NCBI RefSeq assembly: GCF_025999835.1
Contig: NZ_AP025628.1
Location: 496,001 to 560,000 of the forward strand
Length of the DNA stretch: 64,000 nucleotides
From: Caldinitratiruptor microaerophilus
Lineage (GTDB): Bacteria > Bacillota > Sulfobacillia > Symbiobacteriales > ZC4RG38
Reading direction: 5' to 3'
Shown: positions 2,339 to 50,209 of the stretch, piece by piece
Numbering within the stretch: position 1 is the first letter of the stretch
Layout of the letters: every line of letters starts with the position of its first letter
Made by a program: the position numbers and the translations under genes
The notes under the pieces: model-generated
What the model was told of the DNA's origin: nothing
Seen by the model: the letters and a program-made list of their open reading frames with translations, nothing else
Databases searched by the model: none

Positions 2339-3354
2339 CCCTGACCGACTGGCTTTGGGCGATCCCGGTATTCGGGGCCATCATCCTGGTCCACGAGCTG
2401 GGCCACTTCGCCGCGGCGAAAGCCTTCGGGATCCGGGTCGAGGAGTTTGCGATCGGCTTCGGTCCCTCGCTCGCGTCGGTTCGGTTCGGGGAGACCCGCT
2501 ACAGCCTGCGGGCTCTTCTCGTGCTCGGGGGCTTTGTCCGCATGTCGGGCATGGAGGACGGGAGCCTTGGGGATCCGCGGGGGTTCTCGGCCAAGCCCAC
2601 CTGGCAGCGGATGATCACCATCGCCGCCGGGCCTGCCATGAACTTCGTCCTGGCGACGCTCCTGTTCGCCACCCTGGTCGGCCTGAAGGGGCACATGGAA
2701 ATCACGAACCGGGTGGCCGGCGTCGTCCCCGGGTCCCCGGCCGAGGCGGCCGGGATCGTGGCCGGCGACCGCATCGTGGCCATCGACGGCCAGCCGGTCC
2801 AGTACTTCTCGCAGCTCGCCCGGATCATCCGCGAGAGCGGGGGGCGGCGCCTCCAGCTGACGGTGGAGGGACCCGGCGGCGCGCGCACGGTCGAGGTTGC
2901 CCCCATGCTCGAGGGCGGCCGGTGGATCGTCGGGGTGGAACCGGACCCGAACCCGGTGTTCATCCGCGTCGGTCCGCTCGGTGCCCTGCGGGACGGCGTG
3001 CAGCTGACCTGGCTGGTCACCGAGGGCATGTTCAGCGCCGTCGGCCGCTGGCTGACGGGGCAGGAACAGCCGCAGGTGCTGGGTCCCGTGGGCATCACGC
3101 GCACGGTGGCGCAGGCCAGCCAGGAGGGCCTCGACATCCTGGTCGGCCTGGCCGGCCAGCTATCGATCAACATCGGGATCATCAATCTCTTTCCGTTTCC
3201 GGCGCTTGACGGTTCCCGGCTCCTCTTCCTGGGGGTCGAGGCCGCTCGCGGGCGCCGCATCAATCCCCACCGGGAGAACATGATCCACTTCGTCGGCTTC
3301 ATGCTGCTGCTCGGGCTCATGTTCGCCCTCACGTGGGCGGAGCTCACCCACTGA
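2332..3354 (+). CDS. rseP: Site-2 protease family zinc metalloprotease RseP/RasP
   Basis: An intramembrane protease that cleaves transmembrane anti-sigma factors and signal-peptide remnants. The zinc motif HELGH is at residues 21-25 in the first membrane segment. A PDZ domain (about residues 110-190, GVVPGSPAEAAGIVAGDRIVAIDG) follows, and the third zinc ligand region ALDGSRLLF is near residue 291. Length 340 is typical for Firmicute RasP, which has one PDZ domain where E. coli RseP has two. The ATG overlaps the dxr stop, so translation is coupled. The substrate cannot be read from the sequence. Confidence 0.94.
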   Translation: MLTLTDWLWAIPVFGAIILVHELGHFAAAKAFGIRVEEFAIGFGPSLASVRFGETRYSLRALLVLGGFVRMSGMEDGSLGDPRGFSAKPTWQRMITIAAGPAMNFVLATLLFATLVGLKGHMEITNRVAGVVPGSPAEAAGIVAGDRIVAIDGQPVQYFSQLARIIRESGGRRLQLTVEGPGGARTVEVAPMLEGGRWIVGVEPDPNPVFIRVGPLGALRDGVQLTWLVTEGMFSAVGRWLTGQEQPQVLGPVGITRTVAQASQEGLDILVGLAGQLSINIGIINLFPFPALDGSRLLFLGVEAARGRRINPHRENMIHFVGFMLLLGLMFALTWAELTH

Positions 3355-3434
3355 GCTCCGGCGAGGCGCGCGCCTGCCCCGGCCGGGTTCTTGCCGGCCG
3401 TGCACGCGCCGGGAGGGAAGCGGGGGAAGAGCCG

Positions 3435-4646
3435 ATGCGGAAGAAGACCCGCCGGGTCCGGGTGGGTCGGGTGGAGATCGGGGGCGACGCGCCGATCTCC
3501 GTCCAGTCCATGACCAAGTGCGACACCCGGGACGTCCCCGAGGTGTTGCGCCAGATCCGGGCCCTGGCCGAGGCGGGCTGCGATATCGTCCGGGTGGCGG
3601 TCCCGAACGAGGAGGCGGCCGCCGCGCTCCGGGACATCTGCCGGGAGTCGGCGCTGCCGGTCGTGGCGGACATCCACTTCGATTACCGCCTCGCCCTCAA
3701 GGCCCTCGAGGCCGGCGTGGACAAGCTCCGGCTGAACCCGGGGAACATCGGCGCCCGGTGGAAGATCGAAACGGTGGTGCGGGAGGCGAAGGCCCGCGGG
3801 GTGCCGATCCGGATCGGCGTCAACGCCGGGTCGCTCGAGAAGGACATCCTGGAGAAGTACGGCTATCCCACCCCGGAGGGCATGGTGGAGTCGGCCCTCC
3901 GCCACGCCGCGATCCTGGAGGACCTGGACTTCCGGGACATCGTCATCTCGGTGAAGGCCTCGAACGTGCCGACCATGATCCGGGCGTACCGGCTCCTCAG
4001 CGAGAAGGTGGACTACCCGCTGCACCTGGGAGTGACGGAGGCGGGGACCACCTTCTCGGGCACCGTGAAGTCCGCGGTGGGGATCGGGAGCCTCCTGGCC
4101 GACGGCATCGGCGACACGATCCGGGTCAGCCTCGCGACCGATCCCGTGGAGGAGGTCCGGGTGGGCTGGGAGATCCTCCGCAGCCTGGGCCTGCGGACCC
4201 GCGGCGTGAACATCGTCGCCTGCCCGTCCTGCGGCCGGGTGCAGATCGACCTGGTGAAGGTCGCCGAGGAGGTGGAGAAGCGCCTCGGCCACATCGACGT
4301 GCCCCTGAACGTCGCGGTCATGGGCTGCGTCGTCAACGGACCCGGCGAGGCGCGCGAGGCAGACGTGGCGCTCTTCGGCGGCAAGGGCGTGGGCATGCTG
4401 GTCGTGGACGGCGAACCGGTGCGGCGGACCACCGAGGAGGAGATGGTGGACGCGCTGGTACAGAAGGTCGAGGAGATGGCCGCCGAGCTCAGGGCCGCCG
4501 GCGATCCGGAGAAGGTGCTTCGCCAGCGCCGGGCGCGCCGGCACGAGCGCGCCGACGGCGACGCGGCTGCCGCCGCCCCGCCCGTCGCCGGCGGGTCCAC
4601 GGCGGCGGACTCCCGCCTGCCGCCGGCCGGCCCGCGGGGCAGCTGA
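3435..4646 (+). CDS. ispG: (E)-4-hydroxy-3-methylbut-2-enyl-diphosphate synthase
   Basis: Penultimate MEP-pathway enzyme, reducing MEcPP to HMBPP with a [4Fe-4S] cluster. The start chosen is ATG 3435, preceded by a G-rich Shine-Dalgarno; it removes about 34 non-conserved residues from the longer open frame. The TIM-barrel N-terminal half begins TRRVRVGRVEIGG. Cluster cysteines are visible in ACPSCGRV (about residues 263 and 266) and MGCVVNGPGEA (about 298). The last 35 or so residues are an Ala/Pro/Arg-rich tail not seen in the usual 350-370-residue enzyme. It ends the cdsA-ytvI-dxr-rseP-ispG run. Confidence 0.95.
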   Translation: MRKKTRRVRVGRVEIGGDAPISVQSMTKCDTRDVPEVLRQIRALAEAGCDIVRVAVPNEEAAAALRDICRESALPVVADIHFDYRLALKALEAGVDKLRLNPGNIGARWKIETVVREAKARGVPIRIGVNAGSLEKDILEKYGYPTPEGMVESALRHAAILEDLDFRDIVISVKASNVPTMIRAYRLLSEKVDYPLHLGVTEAGTTFSGTVKSAVGIGSLLADGIGDTIRVSLATDPVEEVRVGWEILRSLGLRTRGVNIVACPSCGRVQIDLVKVAEEVEKRLGHIDVPLNVAVMGCVVNGPGEAREADVALFGGKGVGMLVVDGEPVRRTTEEEMVDALVQKVEEMAAELRAAGDPEKVLRQRRARRHERADGDAAAAAPPVAGGSTAADSRLPPAGPRGS

Positions 4647-5016
4647 CGCCGAGGGCGCGGCCGCCGACCGGCCGACCGTCAGCGCACCGAACGCCCGGCC
4701 CGCCACTCGGTGGCGGCGACGGCACCGCGGCCGGGGACAAGCCGCCAGTGGCCGAGGGCCCGTGACAGGTGGGGCCTGTTGCGGGCCGGTGGCGGTCTGC
4801 CGGTGGCCTCCGTCCCCTCTTCCCCCGGGTCCCCGGATGTGCCGCCGCAGCAGCAGGAGCACGGGAAGGCCATCGAGATCCGGACGTGTGGTTTCATGGG
4901 CAGGATCCTCCTGCGGGAGGCTTCCGTGCCCATCTTATGTTTTCCCTGCGCGCCGTTCGCGGGGCTGCGGCCGGGAAGCGGAACAGGGACGCCGGGGCCG
5001 TGATCGAAGTCCCACC
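4647..5016. other. Intergenic region between convergent ispG and ATPase genes
   Basis: This 370-bp stretch has no convincing gene. Short open frames here lack Shine-Dalgarno sequences and family resemblance. Its only clear structure is the hairpin at 4896-4945, annotated separately. Both neighbours read towards it, so it should contain termination signals rather than promoters. Confidence 0.6.
4896..4945 (+). terminator. Probable intrinsic terminator after ispG
   Basis: ATGGGCA (4896-4902) pairs with TGCCCAT (4927-4933), enclosing GGA/TCC and CCTCC/GGAGG pairs around a small loop. CTTATGTTTT follows. The T-rich tail lies on the + strand, so it best fits termination of the isoprenoid operon. 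It is 250 bp past ispG, so another role for the RNA hairpin cannot be excluded. Confidence 0.5.
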
Positions 5017-6138
5017 TCACGTGTGACGTCGCACCCAGTCACCGAACATGGGTTCCACCAGTTCATACTGTCCGCGCTGCGTGCCCTTGTGCAGGATCGA
5101 GATGCGCATCAGGTAACGCAGGGCTTTGCTGACCGCGGAAGGGTACAGTGGCAAGGCGTACGGCTGTCCACCCTCGACCACGGCCCGCAGGACGGCATCC
5201 GCGTGCTGGATACGGCGGATCTCCGCCCACTGCACCGTGTAGAACTCATCGAGGTGGTCCATGGTCTGCTCGTACGCGAAGTGAACCATGTCGCTGGTGA
5301 TCTCGCGAACCCCCTCGAGCTTGGCGGATAAGTACGCGTTGTAGGCGACCGCCATGACGCAGTAGGGATGGCCACCCGTCTTGCTGAGAAGCGTGTCAAG
5401 GGCCGGTCCCGAAATGGTCAGATCGTGATCGGCCAACCGCCTGCGGATGTACTCCTCCCACGCATGCTCGGGAACCGGTGGCAACTGCAGCAGGGTCGCG
5501 AAGCGATAGAACGCCTGGCGGCGGTCGCCGAAGATCGTCCGAAGCAGCGTTGTCTGGCTGCCCAGAAAGAGGTAGGCGACGCGGGACTGCTGCTGGAATA
5601 GTGCCCGGAGACGCTTCAGGAGGGGTTCGCCTCCGATCCGGTCCACCTCCTGGAATTCGTCCAGGAGGACGACCATCTGACGGCCATCGCGCGTCGCGAG
5701 CTGCTCGGCGGTATTCACCGCCGTCTCCAGGACCTCCTCGGGGTCCGGGCTCCCTGTGCTGAAGGTGAGGCCCAGTTCCAGGTCATGCACCTTGGCCTTG
5801 AGTTCTGCCCTGGAGAGCCACTCCCGCAGACCCCGTAGTGCCCGCACCGCGTGGTGGTACGGCCCGGTGCGGTTTTCGAGGACGGCGCGCAGCAGCTTGA
5901 CCCCGAATTCCTCTGTGCTCGTGACATGGAAGAGGTCGAGCTGCGCCGTGTACGCCCCGCGCTCCCGCAGGCGCCTGAGCACTTCCCCCGCGACACTCGA
6001 CTTGCCGATCCGGCGCGGACCGGCGAGGATCACGCTATGGCCATCGGAAAGGCGTTCGACCAGCTCGGCGATGAACTCCTCACGGTCAACGATGTCTTCC
6101 GGCCCCGCCGGCTTTCCGAAGGGGAACACAGCGGCCAT
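5017..6138 (-). CDS. AAA+ ATPase, archaeal-ATPase-like, function unknown
   Basis: A 373-residue P-loop ATPase. The Walker A motif GPRRIGKSS is at about residues 39-47 and the Walker B motif VVLLDEFQEV at about 160. A sensor region FLGSQTTLLRTIFGD follows, then a C-terminal winged-helix-like region ending LRYLMRISILHKG. The order matches the Arch_ATPase group of STAND-like ATPases. The gene stands alone on the minus strand between conserved + strand genes, is visibly less GC-rich, and has its own AT-rich promoter. These are signs of lateral gain. Partners and function cannot be deduced; such ATPases are often mobile or defence/regulatory genes. Confidence 0.8.
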   Translation of the reverse strand: MAAVFPFGKPAGPEDIVDREEFIAELVERLSDGHSVILAGPRRIGKSSVAGEVLRRLRERGAYTAQLDLFHVTSTEEFGVKLLRAVLENRTGPYHHAVRALRGLREWLSRAELKAKVHDLELGLTFSTGSPDPEEVLETAVNTAEQLATRDGRQMVVLLDEFQEVDRIGGEPLLKRLRALFQQQSRVAYLFLGSQTTLLRTIFGDRRQAFYRFATLLQLPPVPEHAWEEYIRRRLADHDLTISGPALDTLLSKTGGHPYCVMAVAYNAYLSAKLEGVREITSDMVHFAYEQTMDHLDEFYTVQWAEIRRIQHADAVLRAVVEGGQPYALPLYPSAVSKALRYLMRISILHKGTQRGQYELVEPMFGDWVRRHT

Positions 6139-6180
6139 CGAACCACATCCCCGAGTCGAATCTATAATACACCCTGTTTA

Positions 6181-6210
6181 AGTATATCATAGCGACAACG
6201 CGTGTATCCA
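6181..6210 (-). promoter_or_regulatory. Promoter of the minus-strand AAA ATPase
   Basis: On the minus strand TGGATA (6210-6205) is followed by 18 bp and TATACT (6186-6181), about 42 bp before the ATG at 6138. The region 6160-6192 is an isolated AT-rich patch. A second -10-like TATTAT lies at 6169-6164, and the + strand reads TATAAT at 6163-6168, so the exact start is uncertain. Confidence 0.45.
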
Positions 6211-6293
6211 GCGCATCGGGGTAATCCACTCGACACGGAGCTGGTTCTATGGGGCCATCCCTGGAGGTCAGGCACCCCTTGGACTGGACCGAC

Positions 6294-6333
6294 GTGCAGA
6301 TTCTGCCCCCCACCTGGGGGGCAGAATCTGCAC
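6294..6333. repeat. Perfect inverted repeat, 19-bp arms
   Basis: The left arm GTGCAGATTCTGCCCCCCA (6294-6312) and the right arm (6315-6333) are exact reverse complements separated by only CC. A U-tract is absent, so a simple intrinsic terminator is unlikely. The perfect match of long arms suggests recently abutted transposon ends, a miniature element, or a strong operator/hairpin upstream of proS. Confidence 0.85.
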
Positions 6334-6374
6334 AGTGTCCCGCCGGGCGCCGCCAGTGCCGCCTGGCCCTTCGG

Positions 6375-6403
6375 TTGACAGCGTTTGGGGCCTTTGCTAC
6401 CTT
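6375..6403 (+). promoter_or_regulatory. Sigma-A-type promoter of proS
   Basis: TTGACA (6375-6380), 17 bp, TACCTT (6398-6403). It lies about 80 bp before the GTG start chosen for proS and downstream of earlier in-frame starts, which argues that those earlier starts are not used. Confidence 0.65.
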
Positions 6404-6481
6404 GGTACCACAGAACCGGCCTTCCGTCCCGGTCCGGGCGGGGGGCCCAAAACGTGTGCGGTCCGGAGGAGGGTGTCGGGA

Positions 6482-7930
6482 GTGGCGGAGGGGCAGGCGG
6501 TGGTCAAGGAGATCACGCCGCAGTCCGAGGACTTCTCCCGCTGGTACCTGGACGTGATCCGCAAGGCAGACCTGATGGACTACTCGCCCGTGCGGGGCTG
6601 CATCGTGTTCAAGCCCGACGGCTACGAGCTCTGGGAGGCGTGCCAGGCGGGGCTCGACCGGCGGTTCAAGGAGACGGGCCACCGCAATGCCTACTTCCCC
6701 ACGCTCATCCCCGAGAGCTTCTTCCAGCGTGAGAAGGAGCACGTGGAAGGGTTCAACCCCGAGCTGCCCTGGGTGACCGAGGCGGGGGGCGAGAAGCTTG
6801 AAGAGCGGCTCGGGCTCCGGCCCACGTCGGAGACCATCATCGGCTTCATGTACAGCAAGTGGATCCAGTCCTACCGGGATCTGCCCGTCCTGATCAACCA
6901 GTGGGCGAACGTGTTCCGCTGGGAGAAGCGCACCCTGCCGTTCCTTCGTACCACGGAGTTCCTCTGGCAGGAAGGGCACACGGCGCACGCCACCGAGGAG
7001 GAGGCGCGTGAGGAGACCCTCCGGATGCTCGAGGTCTACCGCGACTTCGTCGAGAACGACCTCGCCATCCCGGTGATCAAGGGGCAGAAGACGCCGTCGG
7101 AGCGGTTCGCCGGGGCGGTGGACACGTACTCGATCGAGGCCATGATGAAGGACGGCAAGGCCGTCCAGGCGGGAACCTCGCACTACCTGGGCACGAAGTT
7201 CGCCGAGGGCTTCGACATCAAGTTCCTCGACCGGGACAACCAGTTGAAGTACGTCCACACCACCTCCTGGGGTGCCTCCACCCGGCTCCTGGGGTGCATC
7301 ATCATGGTCCACGGCGACGACCGGGGTCTGGCGCTGCCGCCCCGGATCGCGCCGACGCAGGTCATCCTCATCCCGATCGGCCCGGCGAAGGTGCGGGACC
7401 AGGTGGTCGGCCGGGCCCGCGAGATCCTGGCGGCCCTGCGGGCTGCCGGCGTGCGGGCTCGCCTCGACGACCGGGAGGAGTACACCCCCGGCTGGAAGTT
7501 CAACGAGTACGAGATGCGGGGGATCCCGCTGCGCCTGGAGCTGGGTCCCCGGGACCTCGCACAAGGCGTGGTCACCGCGGTGCGCCGCGACACGGGGGAG
7601 AAGCAGGCGCTTCCCCAGGAGGGCCTCCCCCAGCGCGTGCAGGCGCTCCTGGACGAGATCCAGGTGAACATGTTCCGCAAGGCCCTGGCGTTCCGGGAGG
7701 CCCACAGCCACCGTGCGGAGACGCTGGCCGACCTGGCCCGCGTGATGGAGGGGGAGGGCGGGTTCGTCCTCGCCGGGTGGTGCGGCGACGACGCCTGCGA
7801 GCGGCGGGTCAAGGAGGAGACGAAGGCGACGGCGCGCAACATCCCGTTCGATCCGCCGGAGCGCATGAAGCGGTGCCTGGTCTGCGGGAAAGAGGCGGCG
7901 CACACGGTATGGTTCGCCCGGGCCTACTAG
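6482..7930 (+). CDS. proS: Prolyl-tRNA synthetase, archaeal/eukaryote-like type
   Basis: Charges tRNA-Pro. This is the short (482-residue) form without the bacterial editing insertion. The class II core includes RPTSETIIGFMYSKWIQSYRDLPVLINQW and FLRTTEFLWQEGHTAH. The C-terminal zinc-binding-like region has cysteines in WCGDDACE and RCLVCGKEA, and the protein ends near a Tyr (ARAY), as in Thermus-type enzymes. The start GTG 6482 is preferred: GGAGGAGG at 6465-6472 is 9 nt upstream, and the promoter lies inside the longer frame. Transcribed from its own TTGACA-type promoter. Confidence 0.95.
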   Translation: MAEGQAVVKEITPQSEDFSRWYLDVIRKADLMDYSPVRGCIVFKPDGYELWEACQAGLDRRFKETGHRNAYFPTLIPESFFQREKEHVEGFNPELPWVTEAGGEKLEERLGLRPTSETIIGFMYSKWIQSYRDLPVLINQWANVFRWEKRTLPFLRTTEFLWQEGHTAHATEEEAREETLRMLEVYRDFVENDLAIPVIKGQKTPSERFAGAVDTYSIEAMMKDGKAVQAGTSHYLGTKFAEGFDIKFLDRDNQLKYVHTTSWGASTRLLGCIIMVHGDDRGLALPPRIAPTQVILIPIGPAKVRDQVVGRAREILAALRAAGVRARLDDREEYTPGWKFNEYEMRGIPLRLELGPRDLAQGVVTAVRRDTGEKQALPQEGLPQRVQALLDEIQVNMFRKALAFREAHSHRAETLADLARVMEGEGGFVLAGWCGDDACERRVKEETKATARNIPFDPPERMKRCLVCGKEAAHTVWFARAY

Positions 7931-50170: not shown

Positions 50171-50209
50171 ACGCAGAGGCCCCACCCCCACGGGGTGGGG
50201 CCTCTGCGT
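50171..50209. terminator. Hairpin between convergent RNase J and the QX-repeat gene
   Basis: An 18-bp perfect stem (50171-50188 with 50192-50209) around a CAC loop. It sits between convergent genes and may stop transcription from both sides, although neither strand has a good T-run. Confidence 0.6.

Follow-up and report, generated by a model that had tools for sequence, protein, structure and literature searches.

A perfect 40-bp palindrome upstream of proS is the core of one member of a small hairpin-repeat family in Caldinitratiruptor microaerophilus

What accounts for a perfect 40-bp palindrome between a lone ATPase gene and proS in Caldinitratiruptor microaerophilus? In the 64,000-nucleotide stretch of DNA analyzed here (hereafter the window; contig NZ_AP025628.1, positions 496,001 to 560,000), the palindrome occupies positions 6294-6333, its arms (6294-6312 and 6315-6333) being exact 19-nt reverse complements around a CC centre. 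It is the longest of the perfect inverted repeats with a loop of at most 6 nt in these 64 kb, and for a 2-nt centre base composition predicts about 7e-6 of these per window of this size, which bears out the statement of an earlier note on this DNA that composition cannot explain it. Within each arm there is a further dyad (GTGCAG-ATT-CTGCCC), the flanks read ACCGAC and AGTGTCCC, and folding gives z = -7.35 for the DNA strand at 6280-6370 and z = -3.79 for RNA at 6240-6400. The lack of a T-tract remarked on in the same note is confirmed by direct reading of both strands and, with no T-run in its flanks and a position upstream of two divergent genes, the palindrome does not qualify as an intrinsic terminator. 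The gene to its left encodes a lone AAA ATPase (PF01637 / PF13191; 5017-6138, minus strand), with ispG (3333-4646, plus strand), the ancestral left neighbour of proS, beyond it; to the right of the palindrome lies proS itself, encoding proline--tRNA ligase (6482-7930, plus strand, from the GTG start used in our searches, within a longer ORF that begins at 6335). A second long perfect inverted repeat, with 18-bp arms, a 3-nt loop and no T-run, is present elsewhere in the window at 50171-50209.

This palindrome forms the core of a member of a small interspersed hairpin-repeat family in C. microaerophilus JCM16183. A single BLAST query with a hand-made consensus against the whole 3,599,694-base single-contig genome, a search that weaker copies would escape, finds eight loci at E <= 5e-4 (genome positions 2956009, 960310, 929352, 502296, 797403, 298209, 2830954 and 224893); the best hit beyond the family stands at E 0.04. 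The copy at 502296 is that of the window. Copies are roughly 75-230 bp long, with ends judged by eye, and the most diverged of those found is 74% identical across its match. Fuller copies carry three related 15-nt units with the consensus GTGCAGAANNTGCAC: a unit A with CTTGACCCC after it, an inverted unit B with GGGGTCAAAG before it, and a unit C. The A-to-C distance is 86-87 nt in three copies, and another copy has 96. Units B and C together form the palindrome core, downstream of which comes the flank GTCCCGCCCGG. The core is found at seven loci, always with both arms present in a single near-palindromic block of constant length, and the copy at 224893, which retains the right flank alone, was left out of our palindrome tables and alignments, so these cover seven of the eight copies. 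The window copy (6294-6363, plus strand; BLAST match to the family consensus at 6296-6363) is truncated as well, its unit A not being recognizable and its right tail missing. The copy upstream of rmlD (L047:4700-4870), on the other hand, holds five 15-nt units in about 170 nt, unit B counted by eye, and its extra units look as if they had been multiplied locally.

Taken exactly, the 19-mer of the arms occurs only twice in the 3.6-Mb genome, both times in this palindrome, and it is as degenerate copies at other loci that the sequence recurs. With up to three mismatches there are six further places, five of them inside four other members of the family; one of these five is a unit A, outside any palindrome core. 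The 15-nt unit behaves similarly: all four exact matches in the genome lie within elements, and when one mismatch is allowed 12 of 31 matches lie in elements and 19 elsewhere (10 matches for the reversed control), so confinement to the elements holds only for the exact unit. Rfam covariance models gave no match to the window copy or to that at 298209 and a single one to that at 960310, a WT1 antisense lncRNA region at 21.1 of 60 bits, far under its cut-off (E 0.043); at gathering score nothing was found in seven 10-kb regions, a threshold that also misses the T-box of aspS.

Our reading of the perfect symmetry, which we hold to be probable, is that a truncated copy of this apparently species-restricted family had its core homogenized between the arms by template switching, giving a palindrome with no regulatory role of its own. 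Of the 20 base pairs of the core, the window copy mismatches one, at the centre, and the other six copies mismatch 4, 7, 7, 7, 9 and 10. The consensus of the seven copies is itself an imperfect palindrome, with mismatches at positions 2/39, 6/35 and 14/27 and a G-U pair at 5/36, and the A at 7 and G at 27 of the window copy occur in none of the other six, T at 2 in one. Since the six other cores are imperfect and 7A and 27G are unique to the window copy, the perfect state looks derived, most simply via replication template switching between the arms. Under this scheme the repeat would have multiplied as a small non-autonomous insertion, the mechanism having left no visible trace, and an imperfect B-C inverted repeat would then have been converted to a perfect palindrome during replication (quasipalindrome correction), bases being copied from arm to arm so that T7 became A7, T27 became G27 and, probably, C2 became T2. 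The resulting palindrome would have no regulatory job of its own, lying as it does upstream of the proS -35 box and outside transcripts that start there. In E. coli, template switching is described as bringing quasipalindromes closer to perfection (PMC7202029), and it is also described as an origin of perfect hairpins (PMC8794818). All six differences of the window copy from the majority create pairs, which is automatic for any perfect palindrome and hence no test of the scheme. Changes in both the left and the right arm would take either a pair of templated tracts or a single complex event, and the copies cannot be rooted, so that a perfect ancestor, with the window copy on one side of the root, is also compatible with the alignment.

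The covariation score of the seven-copy core is 0.125 against 0.129 in shuffled alignments, and pairs changed on both sides number 3 against 2.7; 77.4% of cells are paired against 75.2%, a level reached by 55 of 500 column shuffles, although the core pairing does exceed that of every slid version of the alignment. With covariation no better than in shuffles, the cores give no clear indication that an RNA hairpin is conserved. RNAalifold places 8 weak pairs in the 3' flank with a covariation term of -0.05, and single-strand DNA folds of the other six cores have z from -0.21 to -2.60. We reject conserved RNA structure in the repeat, because the pair counts do not clearly beat shuffles.

It is unlikely, in our judgment, that the palindrome is instead a hairpin or operator kept perfect by selection, with the double dyad between the divergent ATPase and proS promoters serving as the binding site of a protein that might be the ATPase or might regulate proS. 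The position between two divergent genes, the dyad within each arm, a perfection unusual in the family and the repeat immediately upstream of both ATPases of this genome (see below) would all suit such a role. The other copies, however, sit in unrelated positions, all apparently intergenic, between recognized genes: in the 5' leader of aspS behind a T-box and in that of alaS behind a partial T-box match, ahead of rmlD, between PIN and iclR genes, in the gap where opuAC and lysE converge, between uvrA and the second ATPase, and near 224893, with gene names from family models around most copies and from the ORF list only around the last. Positions so varied among genes do not fit one operator class. 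The weak excess of pairing over column shuffles speaks against selection too, as does the absence of anything similar in about 600 nt upstream of proS in six relatives; an operator conserved at this site, the observation that the earlier note had named as fatal to its own account, is thus not seen.

These relatives also show what the sites look like when empty. At aspS, where the leader T-box (2955687-2955939, E 2e-18) is followed by the repeat, the distance from terminator arm to aspS match is 241 nt here versus 54 and 74 nt in two relatives from the same taxonomic family (G001 and G002), and it is 100 in G006 and 109 in G007, the aspS match starting up to 7 codons inside the ORF in relatives. 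At the ispG-proS junction, the entire gap of G003 contains neither repeat nor ATPase, and ispG and proS are neighbours without an ATPase between them in the class members G008, G009 and G010 as well. The repeat is therefore missing at both sites, the aspS leader and the ispG-proS junction, in the relatives read, which makes it look like a lineage-specific insertion. Inspection by eye of the alignment and of the aspS empty site showed neither target-site duplications nor terminal inverted repeats, the boundaries not being sharp; with no such duplication, terminal repeat or transposase, it is from copy number and empty sites only that we infer mobility.

The ispG-proS junction (window 4647-6374) is an insertion spot in its own right, holding the ATPase and the repeat here and about 2-2.8 kb of other DNA in G001, G004 and G006. 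That ispG and proS are adjacent genes in G003 agrees with the earlier suggestion of an insertion point, which can now be placed at an old gene junction. On its right side, a promoter-like TTGACA-17-TACCTT (6375-6403, plus strand), which aligns with the same promoter in G001, begins 12 positions past the end of the repeat match at 6363. In G001 to G006 proS has a long leader that ends in TGGTACC..GTCCC. In the window the -10 region is joined directly to TGGTACCACAGAA..GGCCTTCCGTCCC, a remnant T-box-like leader tail (6403-6438, plus strand; TGGTACC...CCGTCCC...), with 245 nt missing relative to G001. We take the TGGTACC leader motif at proS to be that of a T-box; the T-box model has no match at this proS, and Rfam gives no T-box match to the G001 leader at E <= 1, so this label rests on motif and gene. 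By this comparison, some 245 nt of the T-box-like leader that the six relatives keep seem to be gone from proS here.

The ATPase is the second occupant of this junction. At E <= 1e-20 it is absent from G001-G007, the seven nearest relatives (of which two are under 90% complete), and present in 13 of 101 genomes, our own included, and this absence, together with its insertion between ispG and proS, bears out the lateral gain proposed in the earlier note. The genome's only other copy, 44% identical, lies beside the repeat at 2830954 (L051:5156-6307) and is followed by a diverged TnpB-like ORF (L051:6542-8146), the two genes together covering about 2831155-2834145 of the genome. Both ATPases have the same relative orientation, with the repeat immediately upstream of the gene. 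The window ATPase is nearer to homologs in G024 (57% identity) and G054 (54%) than to its own paralog, which makes separate acquisition of the two probable. With the first taken as given, the second ATPase would adjoin a repeat by chance with a probability of about 0.004 (16 neighbour slots, 3544 genes).

This suggestive association, a post hoc lead, raises the possibility that a single mobile or selfish unit comprises repeat and lone ATPase, with the gene travelling with the repeat or being targeted to it and the copies without an ATPase being solo remains. The two ATPases, each adjoining one of eight repeats in the same relative orientation and probably acquired separately, speak for such a unit. 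But the association test was chosen after the fact, the far side of both ATPases is without a 15-nt unit at up to two mismatches, and the families matched include no integrase or transposase; we regard a joint unit as distinctly doubtful. More specifically, the lone AAA ATPase and a three-dyad hairpin repeat that it recognizes could be the two parts of one element, the ATPase having moved with the repeat or been gained at it repeatedly, with solo repeats elsewhere in the genome, a proposal to which we attach still less weight. Comparison of the flanks of ATPase paralogs in G024, G100, G090 and G097 revealed no clear shared element, only gene matches, three matches of 24-34 nt and one contig overlap; the same comparison also failed to reveal the known repeat shared by the window and L051, and several ATPases there lie at contig ends, so it is evidence neither for nor against an ATPase-repeat association elsewhere. 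Dyads stand directly before two ATPase homologs, in L055 (ATCATGAGTATAC...GAATACTCATGAT) and L054 (GCGTGATAAAGTTATCACGC), and are perhaps candidate autoregulatory sites.

The earlier note was right that the palindrome is no terminator and that it is related to repeated DNA, but its central proposal, arms that are the abutted inverted ends of a transposon, is not borne out. Terminal inverted repeats of an insertion sequence, abutted after excision or at a circle junction, might explain inverted arms around a 2-bp centre, and inserted DNA at the ispG-proS junction and the diverged TnpB-like ORF near the second ATPase could be read the same way. Against this, the same two-armed core of fixed length, with related flanks, is present at six other loci, seven in all, and the TnpB-like ORF is the sole transposon-related gene among the neighbours identified. 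A search for Y1/RAYT transposases (PF01797, E <= 0.01) found none in this genome and was positive in 6 of 14 control genomes, 5 of them over the cut-off. With degenerate two-armed copies at other loci and no Y1 transposase, insertion-sequence ends are unsupported, and we consider them very improbable.

Weaker still is the idea that aminoacyl-tRNA synthetase genes use the repeat as part of their leaders, three of eight copies preceding proS, aspS and alaS (3 of 16 neighbouring genes, P about 1.4e-4 if, as we presume, the genome has 24 synthetases), which we consider hardly credible since of 21 T-box model matches only 2 adjoin a copy (aspS and, as a partial match at E 0.0017, alaS), the proS copy sits ahead of the promoter, no synthetase is among the neighbours identified for five copies, and long leaders are large insertion targets, the count itself being post hoc.

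Beyond this genome, the family apparently remains restricted to its species, known so far from this hot-spring bacterium alone. Among 100 relatives we found no convincing copy: a search at E <= 0.01 gave 16 weak matches in 14 of the 100 genomes, and none of the four that were read has the core. A degenerate 29-base pattern had zero matches in genome_contigs and viral_contigs; searched as one exact degenerate form, it fits only five of the eight copies of this genome, so diverged copies elsewhere would be missed. The plasmid and phage collections contain no match at E 0.01, and on this ground we reject a plasmid or phage origin of the repeat. The titles and abstract openings covered by our literature search describe no such repeat family for C. 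microaerophilus, and the announcement of the JCM16183 genome (3,599,694 bp) does not mention repeats (PMC9933637).

Among known systems, the closest likeness is to REP and BIME sequences, described as short, scattered intergenic palindromes, partly species-specific, whose opposed units can form larger hairpins (PMC3733652). As in REPs, which are recurrent extragenic palindromes of 20-40 bp, the core here is 40 bp long, perfect in one of eight copies and imperfect in six. Unlike REPs, the family has a low copy number (8 loci), forms a longer composite element and is without a GTAG or CGTC tag at the 5' base of its stem on either strand, a downstream CGTC being present in some copies only. It also differs from the GTAG class in that no RAYT or other Y1 transposase was found in this genome, although CGTC REPs, according to the same account (PMC3733652), are likewise without a dedicated transposase. 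With no Y1 transposase in the genome, we reject identity with the REP/RAYT system. MITEs are non-autonomous miniature inverted-repeat transposons, small non-coding insertions, and the repeat resembles them in being small and non-coding, in its internal inverted repeats and in being missing at orthologous sites in relatives, but it differs from them in that we identified neither terminal inverted repeats nor a target duplication nor a parent transposase. The passage from an imperfect to a perfect inverted repeat, with changes predicted by the other arm, recalls the quasipalindrome template switching outlined in two studies (PMC7202029, PMC8794818), whereas here the event is deduced from paralogous copies and not from a parent-offspring or strain comparison.

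The palindrome is thus a tidy case of known event types and no new system. If the loss of its leader is real, proS would have been freed from tRNA-controlled attenuation in this species. The repeated pairing of lone ATPase and repeat is the one loose thread, and the locus as a whole cautions that the entire genome should be searched before a perfect palindrome is called an operator or a pair of transposon ends. What C. microaerophilus offers is a clear, ordinary case of a small lineage-specific hairpin-repeat family, one member of which has apparently been homogenized between its arms.
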